Assembly: GCA_014800945.1 (NCBI GenBank)
Contig: JAAVFD010000022.1
Location: 1 to 64,000 of the forward strand
Length of the DNA stretch: 64,000 nt
Source of the DNA: Barnesiella sp.
GTDB taxonomy: Bacteria > Bacteroidota > Bacteroidia > Bacteroidales > Muribaculaceae
Direction of reading: 5' to 3'
Positions 1-11,326 of this stretch are shown piece by piece. A program made the translations under genes and the position numbers. Numbering within the stretch: the first letter of the stretch is position 1; each line of letters begins with the position of its first letter. The notes under the pieces were generated by a model that searched no databases, had not been told where the DNA came from, and saw only the letters and a list, made by a program, of their open reading frames with translations.

Positions 1-3000
1 ACCTTGCCGGGGAGTTCTTTAGCGGCTTCCTTGAGGATAGCGAGCACAACACCTCCTCCGGGCATCTCGAACGGACCTTTGTAGAGGTTCTTGGGATCAA
101 CGGTGGGTGTAGAGCCGTCGGTGGTGTAGTAGATATCGTAGGTACCGGCAGCAAGAGTATTGTCTTCCGGCTTGATAGTAATCACAGGAACGTCTTCCTC
201 ATTGAACTGGTGGGTGATAACCAGTCTTCCGCTCATGTTGGCAGGATCCTGAGTATCATCACCCTTACCGAGTGTCATATAGATGTGGGTGTGACCGCTC
301 TCCTCGTAACCGGGAGCAACAGAGTAAGCGTGGATGTAGCAGTTTTTGGTAACGGCAAATTCGTGACCGTAAACGTTCCATCTGTCTGCTTTCACTTCTT
401 CGGAATCATCGGTGTCAGTAATCTGATAGTAGATAGTAGCACCTTCTACAGCGGTGAGTCTAACAACGGTGTAGGGATAGAAGGTGACATTGTAGTTGCC
501 GTCAGCCTGAATGCCTGTGTTAGTGGCATTTTTGTCAAATGAAGCTCTTACAGCCACAGAGGTCTTGATTTTCTCAACCTCGGTAGGCCAGAGTTCGATT
601 TCTCCGTCGTCGCCGATCATAGCAAAACCGGTGATGTCGTAGTAAGCGGCAGCGCTCTGGTCTTTATCATCCCAGTTGAATGAAGGCTCGAGAATGTTGT
701 GGTTCACACGGATATCCTTACCCTCACCCTTGTTGGTGGTAAGTTTCCACTGAGTGTCGTGGGTAGAGAGTTCGTCACCCTCGGCATTGAATTCCTCGCC
801 GGTGAGTTTCACGTCCATGATCTTCACATAGCGGCGTGCGTTAGCGGTAGTGATGGTATATACCTCGTCCGGCTCAGCCTCAATCTCATCGATGTTTGCA
901 GGCTTGGAAATCGTAGCACCGAAGAGGTCTTTGTGGTCAGCTTCAACATGACCGCCACGAAGATTACCGTTAATTATATGAGGAGTGATAACCATATCGT
1001 TAACGTAGTCACCTGCGCTGAGGCTGTTGACGATAGCGCGGTTTCCGGTTTCATCCTTAACGGGGAGGTAGTGACCCTGAGTTCCGCGGAGGAAGAAGTA
1101 TTCGCCGCCCTTGGCAACCACCTTGGCAGTAGCGGTGAGGTGGTAAGGAGTGTTCTCCTGCGCCTGGCTGATGAAGTTCATAATATATCTGGTATCCACA
1201 GCTGTGCGGGTGAACAGAGTGTCAGCGAGCTCAGAGTTCGGAGTACCGTTAGAGCGTACATAAGCCTTAACCACGGTGTTGGCATCTATTTCAAACGGAC
1301 CGGTGTATGTGATACGTTTAGAGCTGCTCAGACGAGGATCAGAGCCGTCCTTAGTATAGAGAATAACGGCATTTTCGCTATTCTCGGCGGTTGTTGATTC
1401 AAGAGTAACAGTAGCTTTGGTTACGAAAGTACCATCCTTAGCACCGACACCTGATAGAGTGATACGCGGAGCGCGGGGAGTAGCCACATTGCTGAACGCG
1501 AAGCTTTCGGGCTTCAAAGCGAGCATATATCTTCCGTCCTGTCCTTCAGGTATATCGCCATTGTAGAGCATAACGACACCTTCAAGGTTGAAGAGCGCGT
1601 TTTCAGAATACATGACATCCAGGTCAGGGTTAGCGTCAAATACGCTACCATTGTCCAGAATCGGTTTGCCGGGGATGTTGAGGGTGTAAGTGTAAGAAGT
1701 AGCATCCTGATCATCAACGGGAACATCACGCTGAATACCTGCGCCGTTATTAGCAGTGCGGCTTATAGTCACATTCTTGATGCTGTAGCGGAGCATACGG
1801 TCAGCCTCGGTAAATGCAGGTACATTGTTATCCTGAGCGTTTAATTCGACGGGCTTAACAGTACCGCCTGTCACACCGTCAAGACGGCGGAATGTGCGGA
1901 TAAAGTCGGTAGCGTTAGCAACAAGGTTGCCGAAGCCGGACTGAGTGGGGATAAGAGCGAAGTTTGTGATAATGTCGCCAACCTGAAGCGGAGCTCTGGT
2001 TCCGGTTACGTTATTTCCGTCCTTATCAATAGAAATCACATCCTGATTCCATCCGTTTTCATTGTAGATAAGGATAGAGTTATCGCTGCGGTTCTGCTTG
2101 GCTGCTTCGTCAAGGTCTTTACTTTCATCAGCATCAACATCGTCAAGGAGGTTGCCTTCCTTGTCAGTAGTGCGGATATAGATGTAGTTGGGAGTAATCT
2201 CTCTTACACGTGCATATCCGGTGTACTGGTAGAAAGTATGAGTCTCGTCATCGATGGCAGAATCAAGTGCCGGGAGATTCTCAATCTTGTTGGCAACTTC
2301 CTTGAAGTCAGCGATATTTTCAAAAGTTTTGGCAACGGGAATCTTGTTGAAGCGGACTGTCACAACACCGGAGCGCATAGTTCCGGCAGCGAGACGGGCA
2401 GCGATAGTGCAACCGTTTTCACTTTCGAGCTCATCAGATGTGATTGTAACGGTTTCTCCTTTAAGAGGTTCGATTGATTTAGCGGTATTCCATCGGCTAT
2501 CGTTTTCAGTAACAGCCTCGATGTCGTCGCATAGAATATACTGGAGCTTTGTGCCTTCGGTAATGAGATTATGTTCTACGCCGTCAGCAGTAGTAATGCT
2601 GCTTCTAACAGAGAGTTCGAGCTCGTTGCTGATAACATTCATTTCAATGAGCTGATCAGGAATTGCCTCGTCATTGATGGGGTTTGGCGCACGGAGCAGC
2701 GGAGCGGCAACGTAAGCGCGGGGCAGAATAACGGGAGCACCGTCAGCATAGCCTACATAGCCGGCAATGCGGTACTGAACGCCATCAATGAGTTGTTTTT
2801 CAAAATCATCAACAGACTGACCTGTCTCGATTCGCTGATAGAGTTTGACGGTATTATTGTCGTTGTCATAGAAAGTTTTTTCATCATCGTTCCAGCGGAG
2901 CGGACCGAAGTACATCAGCTTGGAGTAGTCGGTAATTTGGGGCACTCTCTGAACGAACTCAGGCTCGTAAGCAGGATAGTCTGCCGGTGCATCATACGGC

Positions 3001-5495
3001 TCGCTGATAAGAGGAGTGTAATCAATGGTGCCATTGGTTAGGAACAGCTCAGGCATCTCCTTGTTTTTGCGGAGCACGCCGGTGAGACCGTCAATCAGCT
3101 GATAGCCTTTGTATGCCTCATCGTATTTCTGAACGTCTTCTCCCTCAACGTGAACACGGAGCACATTACCGCTTTTATCGGCAACGAACATCAGATAAAC
3201 GTTACCGGTGTTATCATCGCTGAGCGGGAAGAAACCTACAACGCGTAGCGGCTCGGTGATGGTGACTATTGAAGCTGCGTCAGGCACACCATCAAGGAGA
3301 GCCTTGTAAGCTACATTGTTAAGCGGAGTGGTTTCAATTTTGCTGAAGTCGCGGCGAGAAACCTCGCACTCTGAACCTGAAACATATTCGCGAACAAAGA
3401 GACGTCCGGTGGCATTGATTGGCAGCTTATTGTCTGCAGGCCATTCTTTCCAATCGGTATCCTTTTCCTCAGGGCTCTGAGGCCAAATGTTGTTGGTAAC
3501 AGGTATGAACTGATACTGAACAGTGCCCTTATTATCTGCCATAGATGTCATCTTCACTTTGACATCATTGGTGATAAAGCCTACAGCGTCACCGGCAAGA
3601 GTAAGAGTGCTCTGACCATCAACCGTATTTACAAGCGGCGCCTGCACAAGCTGCACACCACCGCCACCTGCCATTTCAGGGTCGCGATATTCAACAAAGA
3701 TGGTTTCAGTTTTAGTTAAAGTAGCGGTACCTATACCATCATGTAAAAGGAAGTTAACAATAATCTTTTTCCCATGCATCATATCTGATTCTGTCGGTTT
3801 GACTTCCATAAATGCATACTCATCACCAAATTGGAATAGTTTATCGGCATTGGCGGTTGTTGTAGTGGTTTTTACAAAAGTCGTTGCAGTACCTGGCGCA
3901 GTACCGTTAGTGGTGAAGCGAATGAATCTTGCCCAAGGAATATTATTTTTTACGGGAATTTTAATCATTCCATCAACAAGACTGCTTTTATCATAATATA
4001 ATGTTTTGGCGTTTTCATTATATTCACACCCCTCAGGTAAATTATCAGTTGCAATCTCCGGAATCGCTACGTTGTTGTACGTTCCTCCACCGGTAGCAGC
4101 ATCCATATTTCGATCCAATTTTAACACGAGGGTTTTCCCTGTTCCAGCGGAATTCCATGGACGGAAAGTCTGATATCGGATTCTAGCGGAAGCAGTTGTG
4201 CTTTCTTGAGAGGATATTGAAATAGCGGCGTCGGACTGATAAGAAGGCATCAAACAAGCTTGAGTACCAGTCATAAAAAGGCCGTATGTATTAGAGTTTA
4301 CTTTGCTTGCTCCACTAGCGTCTAAATAATTCTGCATAAGATTTGTATGGGGAAAACAATCGGTAGCGGCGGTAGCACCCCAGTTGAAAGTAGAAGTTGT
4401 GGAACTTCTGAACGCTCTATTTTTTGTTCCGCCTGAGTCTAAAAATGAGAAGCTAGCAGCCATGGTAGTTCCGGTTGCAGTCGCGGAATTGGCGGCATAT
4501 CTTGTCCAAATTGTAGAGGCGTTGCCGTAAATAGGTGCACTTATAAATAATTTGTCATTGGCAAGTATATAGAGTTCAATATATTCGCCCTCGGGAAAAG
4601 CCGTTGCATTAGTAGCTGTTACCAATTTTACAGTGTAAGAACCAAAAGATGCTTTATGCTCAGTGTCACCGCAGGCGGCACTATTAACTTGGATTTTTTC
4701 ACCGTTAATAATAAGATAGGGGATGTCTTGAGGGGTTCCGATGTTGTCAACAGGAGTCCAATCACATTCTGTATAAGCAAAAGCCCATACTTTAGAACCT
4801 AAATTAATCTTAAAATCTTTTTCAAAACCATCTTTAGGAGTAATAGTAATTATGTTACCGTTTTGACTTAAAGTAACCTGTTCCTGATTCCAGTCAGTCA
4901 TAGCCTGAGCTGCTGTACCGTAAGTAAATCCCCCGGCAGTGCAATCAGGATTTAATGTAATGCTTACGGAATGAATAGTGCCTCCGAGAGTGCGGAAACG
5001 CACAGTGGATCCATCCGGTATCATTACATTGGCTCTATTAGCTGTGTTGGCTGCACCACTGGCTATAGATACGCCATTATAAGGTTTTTTCACTTCAAAC
5101 AGCATCTGAATCATGTCCTGTCCGTCTGAAGTTGAGTATTGAGCATTTGTGGCTGTTTGCTGAAGCCCTAAGAGGTAGCCGTTTATAGGTGTAGGTGTTC
5201 CGCTTTTAGGAATAGGAGTAGTAGAGGTATATGCGTTACTGAAGTAACAACCGAAGCCATCGTTATTAGATAATACCATTCCACCTTCGTTGTGTTTGCC
5301 GCCAGCACTATTACTACTGGCGGGAGTAGAGTTGGCGTAATTATTGCCAGATACAGTTATACTACTGTTTCCAAGATTACGTATAGTACCGGTTGGGGAA
5401 AGACCCGAAATAGGGGATGTAATTCGATCCCCGGCTTTGGCGCGTGGTGGCGCAAAGAGGAGGATTGCCATTAGTAATAGCAAAATCTTTTTCAT
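1..5495 (-). CDS. Giant secreted protein with chitobiase C-terminal-like modules (3' end outside window)
   Basis: The reverse frame starting at the ATG ending at 5495 appears open to the window edge, giving at least 1831 residues; its C-terminus is not visible. It opens with a classical signal peptide (MKK, a leucine-rich core, then PPRAKA), so it is exported. The first 900 residues are Ser/Thr/Asn-rich and look like beta-sandwich surface modules. At least two segments match the chitobiase/beta-hexosaminidase C-terminal module: YTKDGSDP at about residue 1380 and YYTTDGSTP at about 1790, each followed by a GPFE-type turn. A third, weaker copy begins near 1685. Such modules are common in large Bacteroidales surface proteins and usually bind or space domains. 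No catalytic domain was recognised, so function is unknown. Any anchoring or type IX sorting domain would lie beyond position 1. Confidence 0.8.
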   Translation of the reverse strand, partial: MKKILLLLMAILLFAPPRAKAGDRITSPISGLSPTGTIRNLGNSSITVSGNNYANSTPASSNSAGGKHNEGGMVLSNNDGFGCYFSNAYTSTTPIPKSGTPTPINGYLLGLQQTATNAQYSTSDGQDMIQMLFEVKKPYNGVSIASGAANTANRANVMIPDGSTVRFRTLGGTIHSVSITLNPDCTAGGFTYGTAAQAMTDWNQEQVTLSQNGNIITITPKDGFEKDFKINLGSKVWAFAYTECDWTPVDNIGTPQDIPYLIINGEKIQVNSAACGDTEHKASFGSYTVKLVTATNATAFPEGEYIELYILANDKLFISAPIYGNASTIWTRYAANSATATGTTMAASFSFLDSGGTKNRAFRSSTTSTFNWGATAATDCFPHTNLMQNYLDASGASKVNSNTYGLFMTGTQACLMPSYQSDAAISISSQESTTASARIRYQTFRPWNSAGTGKTLVLKLDRNMDAATGGGTYNNVAIPEIATDNLPEGCEYNENAKTLYYDKSSLVDGMIKIPVKNNIPWARFIRFTTNGTAPGTATTFVKTTTTTANADKLFQFGDEYAFMEVKPTESDMMHGKKIIVNFLLHDGIGTATLTKTETIFVEYRDPEMAGGGGVQLVQAPLVNTVDGQSTLTLAGDAVGFITNDVKVKMTSMADNKGTVQYQFIPVTNNIWPQSPEEKDTDWKEWPADNKLPINATGRLFVREYVSGSECEVSRRDFSKIETTPLNNVAYKALLDGVPDAASIVTITEPLRVVGFFPLSDDNTGNVYLMFVADKSGNVLRVHVEGEDVQKYDEAYKGYQLIDGLTGVLRKNKEMPELFLTNGTIDYTPLISEPYDAPADYPAYEPEFVQRVPQITDYSKLMYFGPLRWNDDEKTFYDNDNNTVKLYQRIETGQSVDDFEKQLIDGVQYRIAGYVGYADGAPVILPRAYVAAPLLRAPNPINDEAIPDQLIEMNVISNELELSVRSSITTADGVEHNLITEGTKLQYILCDDIEAVTENDSRWNTAKSIEPLKGETVTITSDELESENGCTIAARLAAGTMRSGVVTVRFNKIPVAKTFENIADFKEVANKIENLPALDSAIDDETHTFYQYTGYARVREITPNYIYIRTTDKEGNLLDDVDADESKDLDEAAKQNRSDNSILIYNENGWNQDVISIDKDGNNVTGTRAPLQVGDIITNFALIPTQSGFGNLVANATDFIRTFRRLDGVTGGTVKPVELNAQDNNVPAFTEADRMLRYSIKNVTISRTANNGAGIQRDVPVDDQDATSYTYTLNIPGKPILDNGSVFDANPDLDVMYSENALFNLEGVVMLYNGDIPEGQDGRYMLALKPESFAFSNVATPRAPRITLSGVGAKDGTFVTKATVTLESTTAENSENAVILYTKDGSDPRLSSSKRITYTGPFEIDANTVVKAYVRSNGTPNSELADTLFTRTAVDTRYIMNFISQAQENTPYHLTATAKVVAKGGEYFFLRGTQGHYLPVKDETGNRAIVNSLSAGDYVNDMVITPHIINGNLRGGHVEADHKDLFGATISKPANIDEIEAEPDEVYTITTANARRYVKIMDVKLTGEEFNAEGDELSTHDTQWKLTTNKGEGKDIRVNHNILEPSFNWDDKDQSAAAYYDITGFAMIGDDGEIELWPTEVEKIKTSVAVRASFDKNATNTGIQADGNYNVTFYPYTVVRLTAVEGATIYYQITDTDDSEEVKADRWNVYGHEFAVTKNCYIHAYSVAPGYEESGHTHIYMTLGKGDDTQDPANMSGRLVITHQFNEEDVPVITIKPEDNTLAAGTYDIYYTTDGSTPTVDPKNLYKGPFEMPGGGVVLAILKEAAKELPGK

Positions 5496-7128: not shown

Positions 7129-7581
7129 TCAGCACAAAAGTAGTGAAAAAAGCGGAATGAGCGCGAAAGGGTGAGGTGTGATTCTGGGTAGGTTGGTTCT
7201 GATGGCGGATACGAAGCGGCCCATGAGGCTGAGCGTGGAGTGTGCCGCATCAAGGAGCGACTCGGCGTATGGCGGCTCAAGGGTGAACACCGCCTCGGCG
7301 AGAATCCTCAGGGCTACAACTCTTTGCAGGGCAGCCTCCACGGCGGCTACCGGTGCAGCGGGGGCGAGGCGAAGGGTCAGCTGCACGGTAGAGCCTGTGT
7401 GGGTAGCTGTTGCATCGAGCGAAAGGGCGAGTGAGTCAATCTCGTCATGGATGAGCTGATTGAGCGCCTCGGCGGAGTCGGTGGTGAGGAGCGTGGGTGT
7501 GGTAGCCGGGTCGATGTGGTGTAGCGCCGAGCGGGCGTAAATGTCGGCGGTTATAGCCGGTATTGATAGTGTGATTGTCAT
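7129..7581 (-). CDS. Hypothetical protein, last gene of capsid-portal cassette
   Basis: A 150-residue protein, rich in Ala, Leu and Thr, that I cannot assign to a family. The start chosen is the ATG ending at 7581 (MTITLSIPAI). The frame is also open further upstream to 7647, but that stretch only translates a 9-bp tandem repeat into a monotonous LKTLKT peptide and is probably leader. The middle is predicted to be helical (EALNQLIHDEI, then VEAALQRVVALRILAEAVF). It follows the portal-like gene and precedes the U32 gene. By position it could be a head-completion or neck protein, but nothing in the sequence proves this. Confidence 0.6.
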   Translation of the reverse strand: MTITLSIPAITADIYARSALHHIDPATTPTLLTTDSAEALNQLIHDEIDSLALSLDATATHTGSTVQLTLRLAPAAPVAAVEAALQRVVALRILAEAVFTLEPPYAESLLDAAHSTLSLMGRFVSAIRTNLPRITPHPFALIPLFSLLLC

Positions 7582-7590
7582 AGCTATTTT

Positions 7591-7631
7591 TAGGGTCGTT
7601 AGGGTCTTTAGGGTCTTTAGGGTCTTTAGGG
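7591..7631. repeat. 9-bp tandem repeat TAGGGTCTT, about 4.5 copies
   Basis: Four units plus five bases of TAGGGTC(T/G)T lie between the portal-like gene and the start of the 150-residue gene, about 10 bases from that ATG. A related partial copy (TTAGGGTCTTTAGGGGG) lies at 9631-9647, in the gap between the capsid-like and connector-like genes. Because the unit is 9 bp, copy-number change would not shift frame but would alter the leader length. Confidence 0.8.
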
Positions 7632-7659
7632 AAACTAATCGTCTCAAAGACTCCCCGCG

Positions 7660-9060
7660 TCAGGCGGGGAGGAGGTTGTTGCGGGCTTCGATGAAGGAGG
7701 AGAATGCTCCGAAAATGTCGGCGAGTGCTGCACGCGAATTTTCGCGGAGCATATCGTAGAGCGATGCCGAGCCGTTAGCCGCCACAGACTCTCCCGACAG
7801 TACGGGCGAAACACCCGAAATCTGGTTCATGAGGTCGAGCTGTGTCGCGAGCAGCCTGTGAGCGTCTGCCGTAGCACCCGAAGTGGTGATCTGTGTGGGC
7901 ATATCATTAGTCCGGGTGGAAGATTTGAAGGGGATAACTCCCCGGCAGTCGCTCCAGAGGTCAGCCACCTCCGGCCAAGAGTATCCTGTGGGTTTTCTAT
8001 CCTCTGGAAAGAGTAGCACACCCTTGGCGCTTGAGTGCATGATCGAGTCGATGAGGGTAATCATGCGGTTGACATATTTCTGCTGGTCGATAATGTCCTC
8101 GATGAAAGGATGCACCTTTCCGTCGGTGAGCGGGTAGAACTTCACGGCAAACGGGTGCATACCGTGGGAGAAAGGGGAGTAGTACTCGTCCAGCAGAGAG
8201 CCGTCAGCCGCGAGCCAGCGGCATTTCCATCGCACGGTGTGGAAATCGACATAGGTGAGTTTTTGCGGCAGCTCCCTGCGGCTGTTGATTCTGATGAGGT
8301 CCGGCTCGTTGCGCTTGTGAGTGAGGAAAAACCGCCCTGCAACGGGGTCGAATCCCTTTACCGCCCTAAGGCTTTCGAGAGTCCATAGCTCAATGACCCT
8401 GTGCTTTCCCCTTGCCGGGGTGAAAAACGGGTCGAAATCTTTATCGGCGAATGACAGTGGCATAGCATCAGCGGGTGTAAAACGCTCGGGATTCCGGCGC
8501 ACTTGATCGTTATTCATACTGAACCGGCTGTGGAGCTCCGCAGTGCTCATGTCGTGAATCATTCCTATAAGCTCGATGTCGAGCCCTCTCGGGTCACTGA
8601 ATTTGTTGACGAAAAACCTGTCAGGCGACACATTATCCACCCACACTCCGCACCCGGCGGGTCGCCTTTCCGGCACGACCCTCTGGATAGCGCATCCTGA
8701 GATGAGAAACTCCTCGAAAGCACGCGAATCAAGTTCGGTGATGTTGTTCAGCCGCAGGATGTCTCTCACCCGTCGGTTGAACGACTTCGGGTGCTCGGTC
8801 CTGAAAACCCCGACCACTGTTTTGACCACCCGTCGGATGAGATTGTTTGTGAGCGGTCTGGCGCCCGAACGGCACGCCCACTGCATATCTGTGAGCAGTT
8901 CTCCGGAGGGGGTCAGTGAAATGTCAGACCACTGGTCGCCGTAGGTGAATCGCATGAACCTCTGTCTGTCGGCCCTGAGCTGCGCCCACTGCTTCCAGGC
9001 ATCGAAAGCGAGGTTGAGGTAAAGGGAATTGTCTTCGGATGTGTGAGTGTCGGTATTCAT
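7660..9060 (-). CDS. Phage portal-like protein
   Basis: A 466-residue protein with the layout of P22/podovirus-type portal proteins. The N-terminus has a YGDQW block and RPLTNNLIRRVVKTVVGVF, the usual start of the portal stem or wing region. Further on come VDNVSPDRFFVNKF, a YSPFSHGMHPFAVKFYP block and IDQQKYVNRMITLIDSIM followed by SSAKGVLLFPE, which resemble the clip and core blocks of this family. The C-terminal helix region contains SGVSPVLSGES and a Ser/Ala-rich end. In phages the dodecameric portal is the DNA channel of the capsid vertex. The start overlaps the stop of the connector-like gene by four bases (ATGA). No terminase is nearby. The assignment rests on pattern resemblance, not a search. 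Confidence 0.65.
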   Translation of the reverse strand: MNTDTHTSEDNSLYLNLAFDAWKQWAQLRADRQRFMRFTYGDQWSDISLTPSGELLTDMQWACRSGARPLTNNLIRRVVKTVVGVFRTEHPKSFNRRVRDILRLNNITELDSRAFEEFLISGCAIQRVVPERRPAGCGVWVDNVSPDRFFVNKFSDPRGLDIELIGMIHDMSTAELHSRFSMNNDQVRRNPERFTPADAMPLSFADKDFDPFFTPARGKHRVIELWTLESLRAVKGFDPVAGRFFLTHKRNEPDLIRINSRRELPQKLTYVDFHTVRWKCRWLAADGSLLDEYYSPFSHGMHPFAVKFYPLTDGKVHPFIEDIIDQQKYVNRMITLIDSIMHSSAKGVLLFPEDRKPTGYSWPEVADLWSDCRGVIPFKSSTRTNDMPTQITTSGATADAHRLLATQLDLMNQISGVSPVLSGESVAANGSASLYDMLRENSRAALADIFGAFSSFIEARNNLLPA

Positions 9061-9620
9061 AGTGTGTTGGCTTTATTAAGGTTAGATAAAAGGTTGGTGT
9101 CTGCCATAGCAGCAAGCATAGGGGGTGTGAGGAGGAAGGTGTCGGCTGCCGGTGCGGGTACTCCGATGAGCGATTCAAGAGCTGCGTCGGTACCCGGCGC
9201 CGGGTAGAGGGCAATTGAACCGTCAGGCATCTCCATAGCCACAGGGGAAGCGGCGGTGGCGGCAGTGAAGGGATTGTGCTGTCGCAGCGTGAGCTCCGGC
9301 GACTGCGGCACTACTTCAGCGGGTGCACTCCACTGAGCGAGCTTGACAGATACGGGACGGAGACATTGCGGCGGCACAGCGACGGTGAGGCATCCGGTAG
9401 GGGAGAGTGAGAGGAGAGCCTTGCCGGCGAACTCATCCAGCGGCAACTGCTGCGGCGGGAGGGTGGAGAGGAGGGTGGAGTACCGGCAGCCGATCTCCAG
9501 GGCGAGTAGGCTATCGAGCTGCGGTGTGGCAAGCGCGGCAAGCGGGGAGAGGGGCTCCCACCCGTGGAGCAATTTCCAGCGGGCGAGGAGTTCTTGTAGA
9601 GAAAGGGTTGTGTAGTTCAT
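9057..9620 (-). CDS. Putative head-tail connector-like protein
   Basis: A 187-residue protein between the capsid-like and portal-like genes, sharing a four-base ATGA overlap with the portal-like gene. It begins LSLQELLARWKLLHGW, then helical segments, a beta-rich centre (CLTVAVPPQCLRPVSVKLAQW), and ends with an AMEMPDGSIALYPAPG turn and a helix (PPMLAAMADTNLL). Its size, place and alternating helix/beta pattern would suit a connector or adaptor protein, but I do not recognise a named family. GC and proline content are high compared with the flanking housekeeping genes. Confidence 0.5.
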   Translation of the reverse strand: MNYTTLSLQELLARWKLLHGWEPLSPLAALATPQLDSLLALEIGCRYSTLLSTLPPQQLPLDEFAGKALLSLSPTGCLTVAVPPQCLRPVSVKLAQWSAPAEVVPQSPELTLRQHNPFTAATAASPVAMEMPDGSIALYPAPGTDAALESLIGVPAPAADTFLLTPPMLAAMADTNLLSNLNKANTL

Positions 9621-9669
9621 AGTCGGTTTTTTAGGGTCTTTAGGGGGTTATTAGATAAAGGTAAAAGGA

Positions 9670-10938
9670 TTAGTCGCGGAAGATGATGCGGGTGTGTGCC
9701 TTCGGATTTCTGAGCACCAGGCAACTCGCCTCGGTGATGACAACTGCCTCGGTGTTTCGTGTGCCCACCATCTTCATGTCGATTTTGTCAGCCTTCATGG
9801 GCTGCTGGACGTACTTGGTGAGGTATTCCGGGTCGATAATCAGCCCGTCCCGCGAGTGTCCGCACTGGTCGAAAACCTCAGAGAAGATGACGAGCAGAGT
9901 GCCGAACTTGCTGTGGATTTCGTTGAAGTCGATGCCCCAGTATGTTACCTTGTCCTTAGCGGCGATGACTCTCTGCGCATCAAGGTTGCTGAGGTCGGCA
10001 ATGAGCTGCGAGCCGGCAAAGAGAATCTTTTTGCTTGATCCGGCAGACTCTCCGGTAAATGCCTTTCGCATAATTTCTGTGAGTTTTGCATGATTGAGCT
10101 CTCCTTCTTTGTAGTTGACCGCACCGCCCGCCTGACTCCATATTCCTCCCGTAAACATGATTTCATCGCCTCTCTCACCCTGCATGATGCGCGCCTTGCT
10201 GCCAAAAATAAAGCTCTTTTCCATGCACATTCTCATGTCGGTAATCGCCACTTCCTCCTGGTCTGAGAATGTCCATCCCACCTCCTTGGCGCTCTGCCTC
10301 ATGATGTGGCTCTGCTCGACCTGTGCCTTGAAAATCTGGCAAAAATTGGTGCTCTTTTTCGGCAGCGCCTCAAACTGCGGTGTGAGCACATCAAGCTCTC
10401 CGGCTGCTCTTGCCATTCTTACCATCTGTGTGTTCGGCACCATACCCTTGATTGCGCCTTCGTCATCAGAGTTGATGGCAATAGCCTTGATATGATTTTT
10501 GTCGATGATTTCGAGCACATAAAGCATGAGCCCTGTCGGCGCCGGCATATTCTCTCCCTTGGTACCGTTGACCTCCGGAATCAGGATGGTGTCTGACACA
10601 GAGAATACATTGCTGTCAGTAGTGGTGATTGTGTAAATCTCCTTGTCCCCGATATGCTTTGTGCCGGTAGGCTCCGGTACGTCTGACATTTTTGTAACGG
10701 ATTTCTTGGTGTCCACGCTGTAGTATTCCACCACCATGCTCTTGCATTTACGCGCTCCTATGGTGCGTGAAATCTGATCGACCGGTGTAGCCATTGGCTT
10801 TAGTCTGATAACCCTCTCGTCCACCTCATTTTTTATGAGCCCCGGGGCAATCTGATTTGCAACAGTGGTTGTGATGGGACCGTCTGTAACGTGTTCCCCT
10901 CCGGCAAAGCCGGTAGTGATTTTAACTTCGTTTTCCAT
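9670..10938 (-). CDS. Phage major capsid protein-like (SU10/DUF5309 type)
   Basis: A 422-residue protein resembling SU10-type major capsid proteins (DUF5309 family). Supporting blocks: an N-terminal extension with NEVDERVIRLKPMATPVDQI, a central helix-rich stretch with EQSHIMRQSAKEVGW, a loop MFTGGIWSQAGGAVNY, then ILFAGSQLIADL, the sheet FNEIHSKFGTLLVIFSEVF, and a C-terminal strand set TEAVVITEASCLVLRNPKAHTRIIF. The pattern of a FG-linked beta strand followed by a late E-x-S-C-L-V-L-R-N-P segment is typical of HK97-fold capsid C-termini. It has no obvious delta domain or protease gene nearby. It is second in a five-gene run driven by a promoter at 11198-11230. Capsid function is inferred; a domesticated shell role is possible. 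Confidence 0.65.
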   Translation of the reverse strand: MENEVKITTGFAGGEHVTDGPITTTVANQIAPGLIKNEVDERVIRLKPMATPVDQISRTIGARKCKSMVVEYYSVDTKKSVTKMSDVPEPTGTKHIGDKEIYTITTTDSNVFSVSDTILIPEVNGTKGENMPAPTGLMLYVLEIIDKNHIKAIAINSDDEGAIKGMVPNTQMVRMARAAGELDVLTPQFEALPKKSTNFCQIFKAQVEQSHIMRQSAKEVGWTFSDQEEVAITDMRMCMEKSFIFGSKARIMQGERGDEIMFTGGIWSQAGGAVNYKEGELNHAKLTEIMRKAFTGESAGSSKKILFAGSQLIADLSNLDAQRVIAAKDKVTYWGIDFNEIHSKFGTLLVIFSEVFDQCGHSRDGLIIDPEYLTKYVQQPMKADKIDMKMVGTRNTEAVVITEASCLVLRNPKAHTRIIFRD

Positions 10939-10979
10939 AAGTCGGTTGATTAAGTAGGTTAGTTAATTGGTTAGTTTTT

Positions 10980-11162
10980 TTAGTCATCCCAGAAGTCAGG
11001 CTTGATGCACCTGATGGTGTCGGCTCCCGATGACATATCGGTTTCTTGCGGAAGTTTCTCAGCAGGAGCCCACACTCCCCTTGTGGTGAGAATCTTATCT
11101 TTTGCCGCCTGATTGAATGCCTCAGTGCCCGGCTTTGGGATTTCGTTATTAGTGCCTTCCAT
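10980..11162 (-). CDS. Small hypothetical protein, first gene of capsid-portal cassette
   Basis: A 60-residue acidic protein (MEGTNNEIPKPG...FWDD). The ATG ending at 11162 is chosen because the only good promoter, with its -7 box at 11198-11205, lies between it and the upstream in-frame ATGs, which would therefore not be transcribed. It holds a short KAAKD-like helical segment (AFNQAAKDKIL) and ends in KPDFWDD. No family was recognised. It precedes the capsid-like gene by 41 bases, so a scaffold, capsid-stabilising or cargo-tag role is possible but unproven. Confidence 0.6.
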   Translation of the reverse strand: MEGTNNEIPKPGTEAFNQAAKDKILTTRGVWAPAEKLPQETDMSSGADTIRCIKPDFWDD

Positions 11163-11197
11163 AGTAAAAAATATGTGTGTGTTGTCTTTCGACATTG

Positions 11198-11229
11198 CAA
11201 AGGTACGGTATAATATGGCTAAATACCAA
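11198..11229 (-). promoter_or_regulatory. Promoter of the capsid-portal cassette
   Basis: Reverse-strand TACCTTTG (11198-11205) matches TAnnTTTG exactly, with a TTG at 11227-11229 spaced 21 bp upstream. It sits 36 bases before the start of the 60-residue gene and shows that the cassette has an intact host-type promoter. Confidence 0.75.
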
Positions 11230-11326
11230 ATAATTTTGCAACTTTTTTTGAAGAAAAAATGTAACAAGCTGATAATGAGGGGTACTTAGGGAGCCGGAAT
11301 CTTACGAAATGTTGGAGGGTAGAGTT

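Follow-up and report, generated by a model that had tools for sequence, protein, structure and literature searches.

Is a set of phage head genes that stands alone among the housekeeping genes of a bacterium the remains of a prophage, or a part of something that the host itself still makes? The question is raised by Barnesiella sp. of the Muribaculaceae, a family of common gut bacteria, in which the first 64,000 nucleotides of contig JAAVFD010000022.1 (assembly GCA_014800945.1; this whole stretch is called the window here) contain a cassette for an SU10-type capsid, a P22-type portal, a connector-like protein and two small proteins, g1 and c4. As read from the list of open reading frames (ORFs) and the sequence, all five frames are open and lie on the minus strand between 11162 and 7129. 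We consider it likely that a tailed phage has been domesticated here, with the cassette as its head module and the remaining virion genes at other places of the chromosome, and that the whole, which is known from its genes, works in the way of a gene transfer agent (GTA). Muribaculaceae and related families probably make virus-like particles filled with their own DNA, encoded by scattered and inherited genes. The original prediction for this locus had described five intact, collinear frames of viral proteins, which are selected and domesticated and not a decaying prophage, and had named a GTA as one of three possible uses; all of this is upheld.

The identities of the capsid and the portal, as predicted, are firm by Pfam, PHROGs and PDB profile searches, in the last of which the family profile of the capsid matched 9in6 (the capsid of VP1) at 2.4e-12 and that of the portal matched the portal 8jov at 3.3e-5. 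The predicted lack of a terminase is true for the neighbourhood, as the profiles of terminase and of two further proteins, t1 and c6, had no match in the first 20 kb of the window, but it is false for the genome. Led by the terminase of the Bacteroides phage BS-TP4, which is annotated as a tail spike, we found the host terminase as a 613-residue open frame on another contig (L142:9129-10970, minus strand, which equals C21:26128-27969); the two stops reported in the terminase search lie ahead of the ORF start in this genome. The t1 gene (683 residues in the window genome) is located directly upstream on the same strand. Of 21 distinct terminase loci, with L035 and L146, which share one terminase, taken as a single locus, 16 have t1 in the stretch, and in 14 it is immediately upstream; among the best 80 of 491 relatives, to which the named loci belong, it adjoins the terminase in 40 of the 51 loci that hold 3 kb upstream. 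In L239, a record titled Coprobacter sp., terminase, portal and t1 are at one locus, and in L187, from Heminiphilus faecis AM35, t1, terminase, c6 and c4 are grouped. Three records of metagenome-assembled genomes titled Pseudoflavonifractor, Lachnospiraceae and Clostridiales (L180, L203 and L209) hold Muribaculaceae-type terminase loci, and these titles are probably wrong.

All 14 rows of the terminase alignment, 13 from hosts and one from a phage, have KARQWGxST, HxxE, ESTAxG, D428, E486 and D580-D581; we take D428 and E486 to be nuclease residues, and the name of Walker motif is likewise our assumption. The terminase profile matches T4 gp17 at 5.9e-17 over the ATPase part and the C-terminal HDD. 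The t1 proteins of the family received no name from Pfam, PHROGs or NCBIfam; their profile matches BS-TP4 gp26 (4e-15) and a prophage-like copy (4e-19), and a t1 protein from a sister family matches PHROG_32516, the family of gp26, at 1.6e-72, which is consistent with a virion-type protein. The c6 profile matches phage gp9 (1e-9), whose gene is two places from the terminase gene, and one c6 protein matches PHROG_27246, the family of gp9 (7e-8); by this gene place, c6 is a candidate small terminase subunit.

Since the genome has conserved terminase and t1 genes at another place, the cassette is not a shell and a portal alone: selection, as predicted, is upheld, and a stand-alone shell plus portal is not. 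An encapsulin-type nanocompartment is an HK97-type shell without a portal or a packaging motor, while here the portal is adjacent to the capsid and the terminase is conserved. We regard a protein shell or another use of the capsid without DNA, for which portal and terminase would have been redeployed, as very unlikely. It would agree with the shortened portals of the family (430-493 residues in 14 aligned rows, against 621-714 in seven genomes of sister families), of which the window portal spans positions 6-430 of the 594 of the P22 profile, without the C-terminal part, and a sister-family portal spans 5-579; also, no c6 was detected in the window genome. On the other hand, the catalytic residues of the terminase are retained, and its distribution is as wide as that of the capsid.

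The window genome has a single copy of the capsid gene. Of the 198 family genomes, 179 have it (131 of the 140 good ones), mostly in one copy, so that it is not confined to this strain beside a full prophage. The corresponding counts are given here for the terminase (181 of 198; 133 of 140 good), the portal (186; 134), t1 (177; 132), c6 (162; 116) and, with the c4 profile, c4 (124; 88). Capsid and terminase occur together in 169 family genomes, the capsid only in 10, the terminase only in 12 and neither in 7. In the order, 22 of 295 genomes have the capsid: 4 in the family, 17 in f22, f28, f60, f68, f88 and f109, and a divergent one in f20; 42 of the 295 are listed, and members of the six families may be among the other 253, which are negative. 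In the phylum, 4 of 395 genomes gave a match, that is, the window genome and three weak ones. When 34 order genomes were chosen, the terminase was found in all 18 with the capsid and in none of the 16 without it, and the portal in 17 of these 18 and in none of 7 capsid-negative controls. Over 34 chosen genomes that all have the capsid, the portal is present in 33 (G460 is without it). Six families besides Muribaculaceae have genomes with capsid, terminase and portal. A phage satellite of the PICI (phage-inducible chromosomal island) or P4 type is a mobile island with an integrase, and the clade-wide pattern of the capsid speaks against mobility. That the cassette supplies parts to a satellite dependent on a helper phage is hardly credible: the head genes stand without a visible replicon, as such a satellite would allow, yet the set has its own terminase and portal, occurs in clade-wide single copies, and showed no integrase when the ORF list was read. 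This reading gave no replication or lysis genes either, and no profile search was made for any of the three.

Purifying selection is acting on the set in relatives, as indicated by the ratio of nonsynonymous to synonymous substitution rates (dN/dS), a check proposed with the original prediction. Among the pairs listed, the capsid has a dN/dS of 0.02-0.13; portal and terminase have 0.03-0.18, the connector-like protein 0.10-0.24 (3 pairs), t1 0.05-0.19 (3 pairs) and c6 0.26 (1 pair), so that the whole range is 0.02-0.26. These pairs have dS of 0.05-1.5 and comprise up to 14 per gene, out of 25 capsid, 17 portal and 40 terminase pairs; in some of them the same gene occurs twice. The strong constraint on terminase and portal also bears on a killer particle like PBSX, which would package host DNA or none and would bind to competitors and kill them, with no gene delivery. 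The same gene set would serve for it, a variable tail-like protein follows the capsid operon of the sister families, and there is a precedent in PBSX, which packages random host DNA without transfer according to the available parts of PMC7667829 and PMC12946183. Against it, besides the constraint, no killing or immunity gene was noted, though no search was aimed at such genes, and no tail fibre was found in the family with the profiles used. We consider such a particle unlikely here.

The gene order differs among the lineages. In 9 of 12 same-genus loci viewed, the order is c3, capsid, connector-like, portal, c6 and c4; in G171 the c6-c4 pair is on the opposite side, and two further same-genus contigs are short or have c6 elsewhere. 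Among 20 other neighbourhoods of the family, the portal is beside the capsid in 15, and the terminase is within the stretch in 3. The suggested synteny between U32 and rpmA genes holds in part: in G074, a genome of the same genus, the cassette is followed by a U32 gene, as in the window, and such a gene occurs within 20 kb in 3 of these 20, while most flanks differ. In the sister families, the capsid operon consists of gp10-type, capsid, gp12-type and connector-like genes and the tail-like gene, the portal is apart from the capsid (divergent from t1 in 5 of 7 genomes), and the terminase is mostly elsewhere, with G264 having it within 3 kb of the portal. Of 17 sister loci, from which the prophage-like copies L255, L257 and L260 are excluded, 12 have a fumarase-family gene (checked by Pfam in one) close to the capsid operon, and these represent five of the six families. 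In one f88 genome, holin and M15 peptidase genes follow the capsid operon by Pfam. In five of six genomes, the genes are spread over 0.24-2.65 Mb of one contig, against 64-68 kb for the related phages; in G057 (3.3-Mb contig) the arc is about 0.65 Mb if the contig is a closed circle, and in G092 the genes span 47 kb with the capsid not counted. Prophage finders can miss such a system because its genes are dispersed. An intact prophage has contiguous genes for virion, packaging, integration and replication, while the terminase here is on another contig.

The nearest named phages are the temperate Bacteroides phages BS-TP4 (PQ571277), BF1-TP2 (PQ571263) and BKO1-TP3 (PQ571269), in all of which the capsid is 34-36% and the portal 32% identical to those of the window. 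BS-TP4 and BF1-TP2 share relatives of the terminase, connector-like, gp10 and c6 proteins with the host set, and BS-TP4 also t1; unlike the host set, they have contiguous genes, with an integrase or a tyrosine recombinase among the annotated ones, and their portals are 622 and 657 residues long. The terminases of both (L131:20340-22436 in BS-TP4 and L133:20118-22145 in BF1-TP2) carry the annotation tail spike protein. The phage-type contig closest to the host sets is L055 of IMG/VR (27.5 kb; capsid 46% identical to that of the window). Its order of scaffold-type, capsid, gp12-type, connector-like and m1 genes is that of the sister families, and c6 adjoins the terminase; it differs from the host set by contiguous genes and by phage lysozyme and tail-fibre matches. 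Moreover, prophage-like copies of the same lineage occur in L255 (G331:C32), L260 (G427:C10) and L257 (G216:C81), and G331 and G427 hold the domesticated set besides them. L051 and L053 are short IMG/VR contigs that are filed as viral and resemble host-type Muribaculaceae loci; L051 has t1, terminase, c3, capsid, connector-like, portal and c6 inside 9.4 kb. The same genes are on two inverted arms in L054 (IMG/VR, 10.1 kb), which is probably an assembly artefact.

A tree of 55 capsids contains 29 host rows, which carry 15 genus or family labels with 14 changes, the minimum possible, and the tree of PGM, a host gene, gives similar groups. Because capsids of one host genus or family cluster in the tree, and the terminase keeps its catalytic residues, the nanocompartment and the satellite parts supply named in the original prediction fit less well. 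One capture followed by inheritance is the simplest reading of these trees, with several captures as the alternative. Correlation of raw distances had been used first as the test of inheritance, with the trees built afterwards, and it gave one clear result, between terminase and PGM (rho 0.59, p 0.001, n=16). Several observations weigh against a domesticated and inherited set. The raw capsid distances correlate poorly with those of PGM (rho 0.19, p 0.056, n=28; within the family rho 0.06, p 0.35, n=16) and of the terminase (rho 0.10, p 0.29, n=16). The host and phage labels in the capsid tree need 4 changes and not 1, as the host-type L051, L053 and L054 and the phage-type L055 fall among the host rows, and L255 and L260 stand beside host rows with weak tree support. 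In addition, 19 of the 198 family genomes have no capsid match, seven genomes of the genus g30 have weak ones (E 1.2e-5 to 4.6e-12) although the match is strong in the rest of g30, and the tail-like, holin and M15 profiles made from sister families (m1N, m8 and m9) had no match in the window or in the family neighbourhoods searched, 20 around the capsid and 20 around the terminase. The dN/dS pairs come from relatives, with the window genome in none, and the c6 profile found no c6 in the assembly of this genome, which is 82% complete; lacking c6, the window genome's own copy of the system may be impaired. The existence of true prophage-like copies, the incomplete separation of labels and the poor agreement of distances could also mean that we see decaying prophages of one successful lineage which was gained repeatedly. 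This is considered highly improbable, given that 179 of 198 genomes have the capsid, mostly as one open copy, and given low dN/dS, a tree grouping by genus and family, a fumarase site common to five families, and dispersed genes.

For the domesticated phage, we propose that the genes may have been captured once or a few times in an ancestor shared by Muribaculaceae and the six further families, and passed on with the host from then on. They would subsequently have been dispersed, the terminase and t1 to what is another contig here, the portal and c6 to further places in other lineages. Capsid and scaffold would build the head upon the portal, the terminase, guided by c6, would pump in any host DNA encountered, and the connector-like protein and t1 would seal the head and make up a short tail. 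The particles would be released by lysis and could carry host DNA to kin as in a GTA.

The available part of PMC9662315 defines GTAs by six features, of which three were found here: proteins derived from tailed phages (capsid, portal and terminase by Pfam, PHROGs and PDB profiles), fully endogenised genes at several loci (two contigs here, several places in relatives), and mostly vertical inheritance (14 changes for 15 labels in the capsid tree and like groups in the PGM tree, with the weak capsid distances counting against it). The remaining features of that definition are particles containing mainly random host DNA, a head too small for the complete gene set, on which the spread over 0.24-2.65 Mb in five of six genomes and the 47 kb of G092 bear, and delivery of the packaged DNA to other cells. 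With three of six, the set is not classed as a GTA, though it would work most like one. To RcGTA of Rhodobacter capsulatus and the Rhodogtaviriformidae, as far as PMC9662315 describes them, it is similar in having phage-derived particle genes at several host loci with mostly vertical inheritance; it differs by SU10- and P22-type parts from a temperate phage lineage of Bacteroidales, in another phylum, and no kinship of the two phage ancestors was found, though no test was aimed at it. FpGTA of Faecalibacterium resembles it, in the sections of PMC12946183 at hand, by a gut host, near-ubiquity in the genus, podovirus-like parts and two operons; its host is Gram-positive, its terminase, portal and capsid are in one operon, and its particles and packaged host DNA are demonstrated, while those of the Muribaculaceae set are predicted. 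The same sections mention that lateral transduction is known from Bacteroides and that Ruminococcaceae and Oscillospiraceae show GTA-like packaging, and those of PMC7947584 state that RcGTA might owe its random packaging to an altered small subunit and a headful terminase that has been modified. In the accessible portions of open-licence PMC papers, preprints not covered, we found no description of such a system in these bacteria. On balance, we lean to the assumption that this is a working and independently evolved GTA of Bacteroidota, which predates the split of seven Bacteroidales families, is present in nearly every Muribaculaceae genome, has regrouped its parts (a shortened portal beside the connector gene, t1 beside the terminase) and may offer a steady route of gene exchange to gut Bacteroidales. 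If this is true, nearly a whole family and six others would keep a standing route of DNA exchange in the gut, and it would represent a separate origin of GTAs and a case of capsid and terminase genes far apart. It might also bear on the mouse-gut particle data in PMC7667829, whose available text reports potential patterns of generalised transduction or GTAs on 46 contigs, but any link is speculation.

Table 1. Features of the cassette and its junctions in the window.
Feature	Position	Strand	Remarks
Bacteroidetes-type promoter match, TTTG-N21-TACCTTTG	11198-11230	minus	about 35 bases before the first gene
g1, 60 residues	10980-11162	minus	short c3-family member, at the place of the phage gp10 gene
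Capsid, SU10 type, 422 residues	9670-10938	minus	Pfam SU10_MCP 6e-51; PHROG_26635 3e-73
Connector-like protein, 187 residues	9057-9620	minus	SU10_adaptor 0.053 only; family profile
Portal, P22 type, 466 residues	7660-9060	minus	Pfam P22_portal 3.1e-13; PHROG_156 1e-34
Junction of portal and c4, tandem CCCTAAAGA-type repeat	7582-7659	minus	place where same-genus relatives hold c6, which is missing here
c4, 150 residues	7129-7581	minus	c4 profile; in relatives usually paired with c6

The roles of the 60-residue, connector-like and 150-residue proteins (Table 1) are unproven. The frame and the place of the predicted connector-like protein stand, and its stop overlaps the portal start as ATGA, just as had been described; its identity is not firm, since the match to SU10_adaptor is under the cut-off of that Pfam profile and no PHROG or PDB profile matched. 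With its family profile, which includes the window row, a protein was matched at the corresponding gene position of each of two Bacteroides phages (3e-9 and 4e-5); these proteins belong to PHROG_22135, a family without an assigned function. The g1 protein was matched by the c3 profile at 2e-9, with the window row itself included in that profile, and it has an FWD-type C-terminal ending in common with the c3 proteins. Phage gp10 belongs to PHROG_22323, likewise without an assigned function, and the m2 profile ties gp10 to some c3 proteins, g1 not among them; by inference, g1 is a candidate scaffold. PDB profiles gave nothing for the connector-like protein and nothing useful for t1 and c6 (the c4 and c3 families were not queried), and PADLOC had no match for the six proteins submitted.

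The claim of an intact Bacteroidetes promoter is partly borne out: the match to the Bacteroidetes-type consensus is well placed before the first gene, but the pattern was found 2 times in the window against 1.49 expected, and since it is no rarer than chance, only the position supports it. A similar match precedes t1 in the same genome (L142:13058-13089). The CCCTAAAGA-type repeats are at 7589-7633 and 9630-9647 of the window, just ahead of the c4 and connector-like genes, and gave five overlapping matches against none in shuffled sequence. The GC (guanine plus cytosine) content is 0.547 in the cassette, 0.55 in the adjacent U32 gene and 0.463 in the whole window. The housekeeping flanks described earlier are found as such, U32 and DHH by Pfam, and rpmA and rplU by reading only. 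Finally, the contig end cuts a gene on the minus strand at 3-5495 of the window; its protein, of which the start is present, has at least 1831 residues and contains chitobiase C-terminal and Fn3-associated domains.

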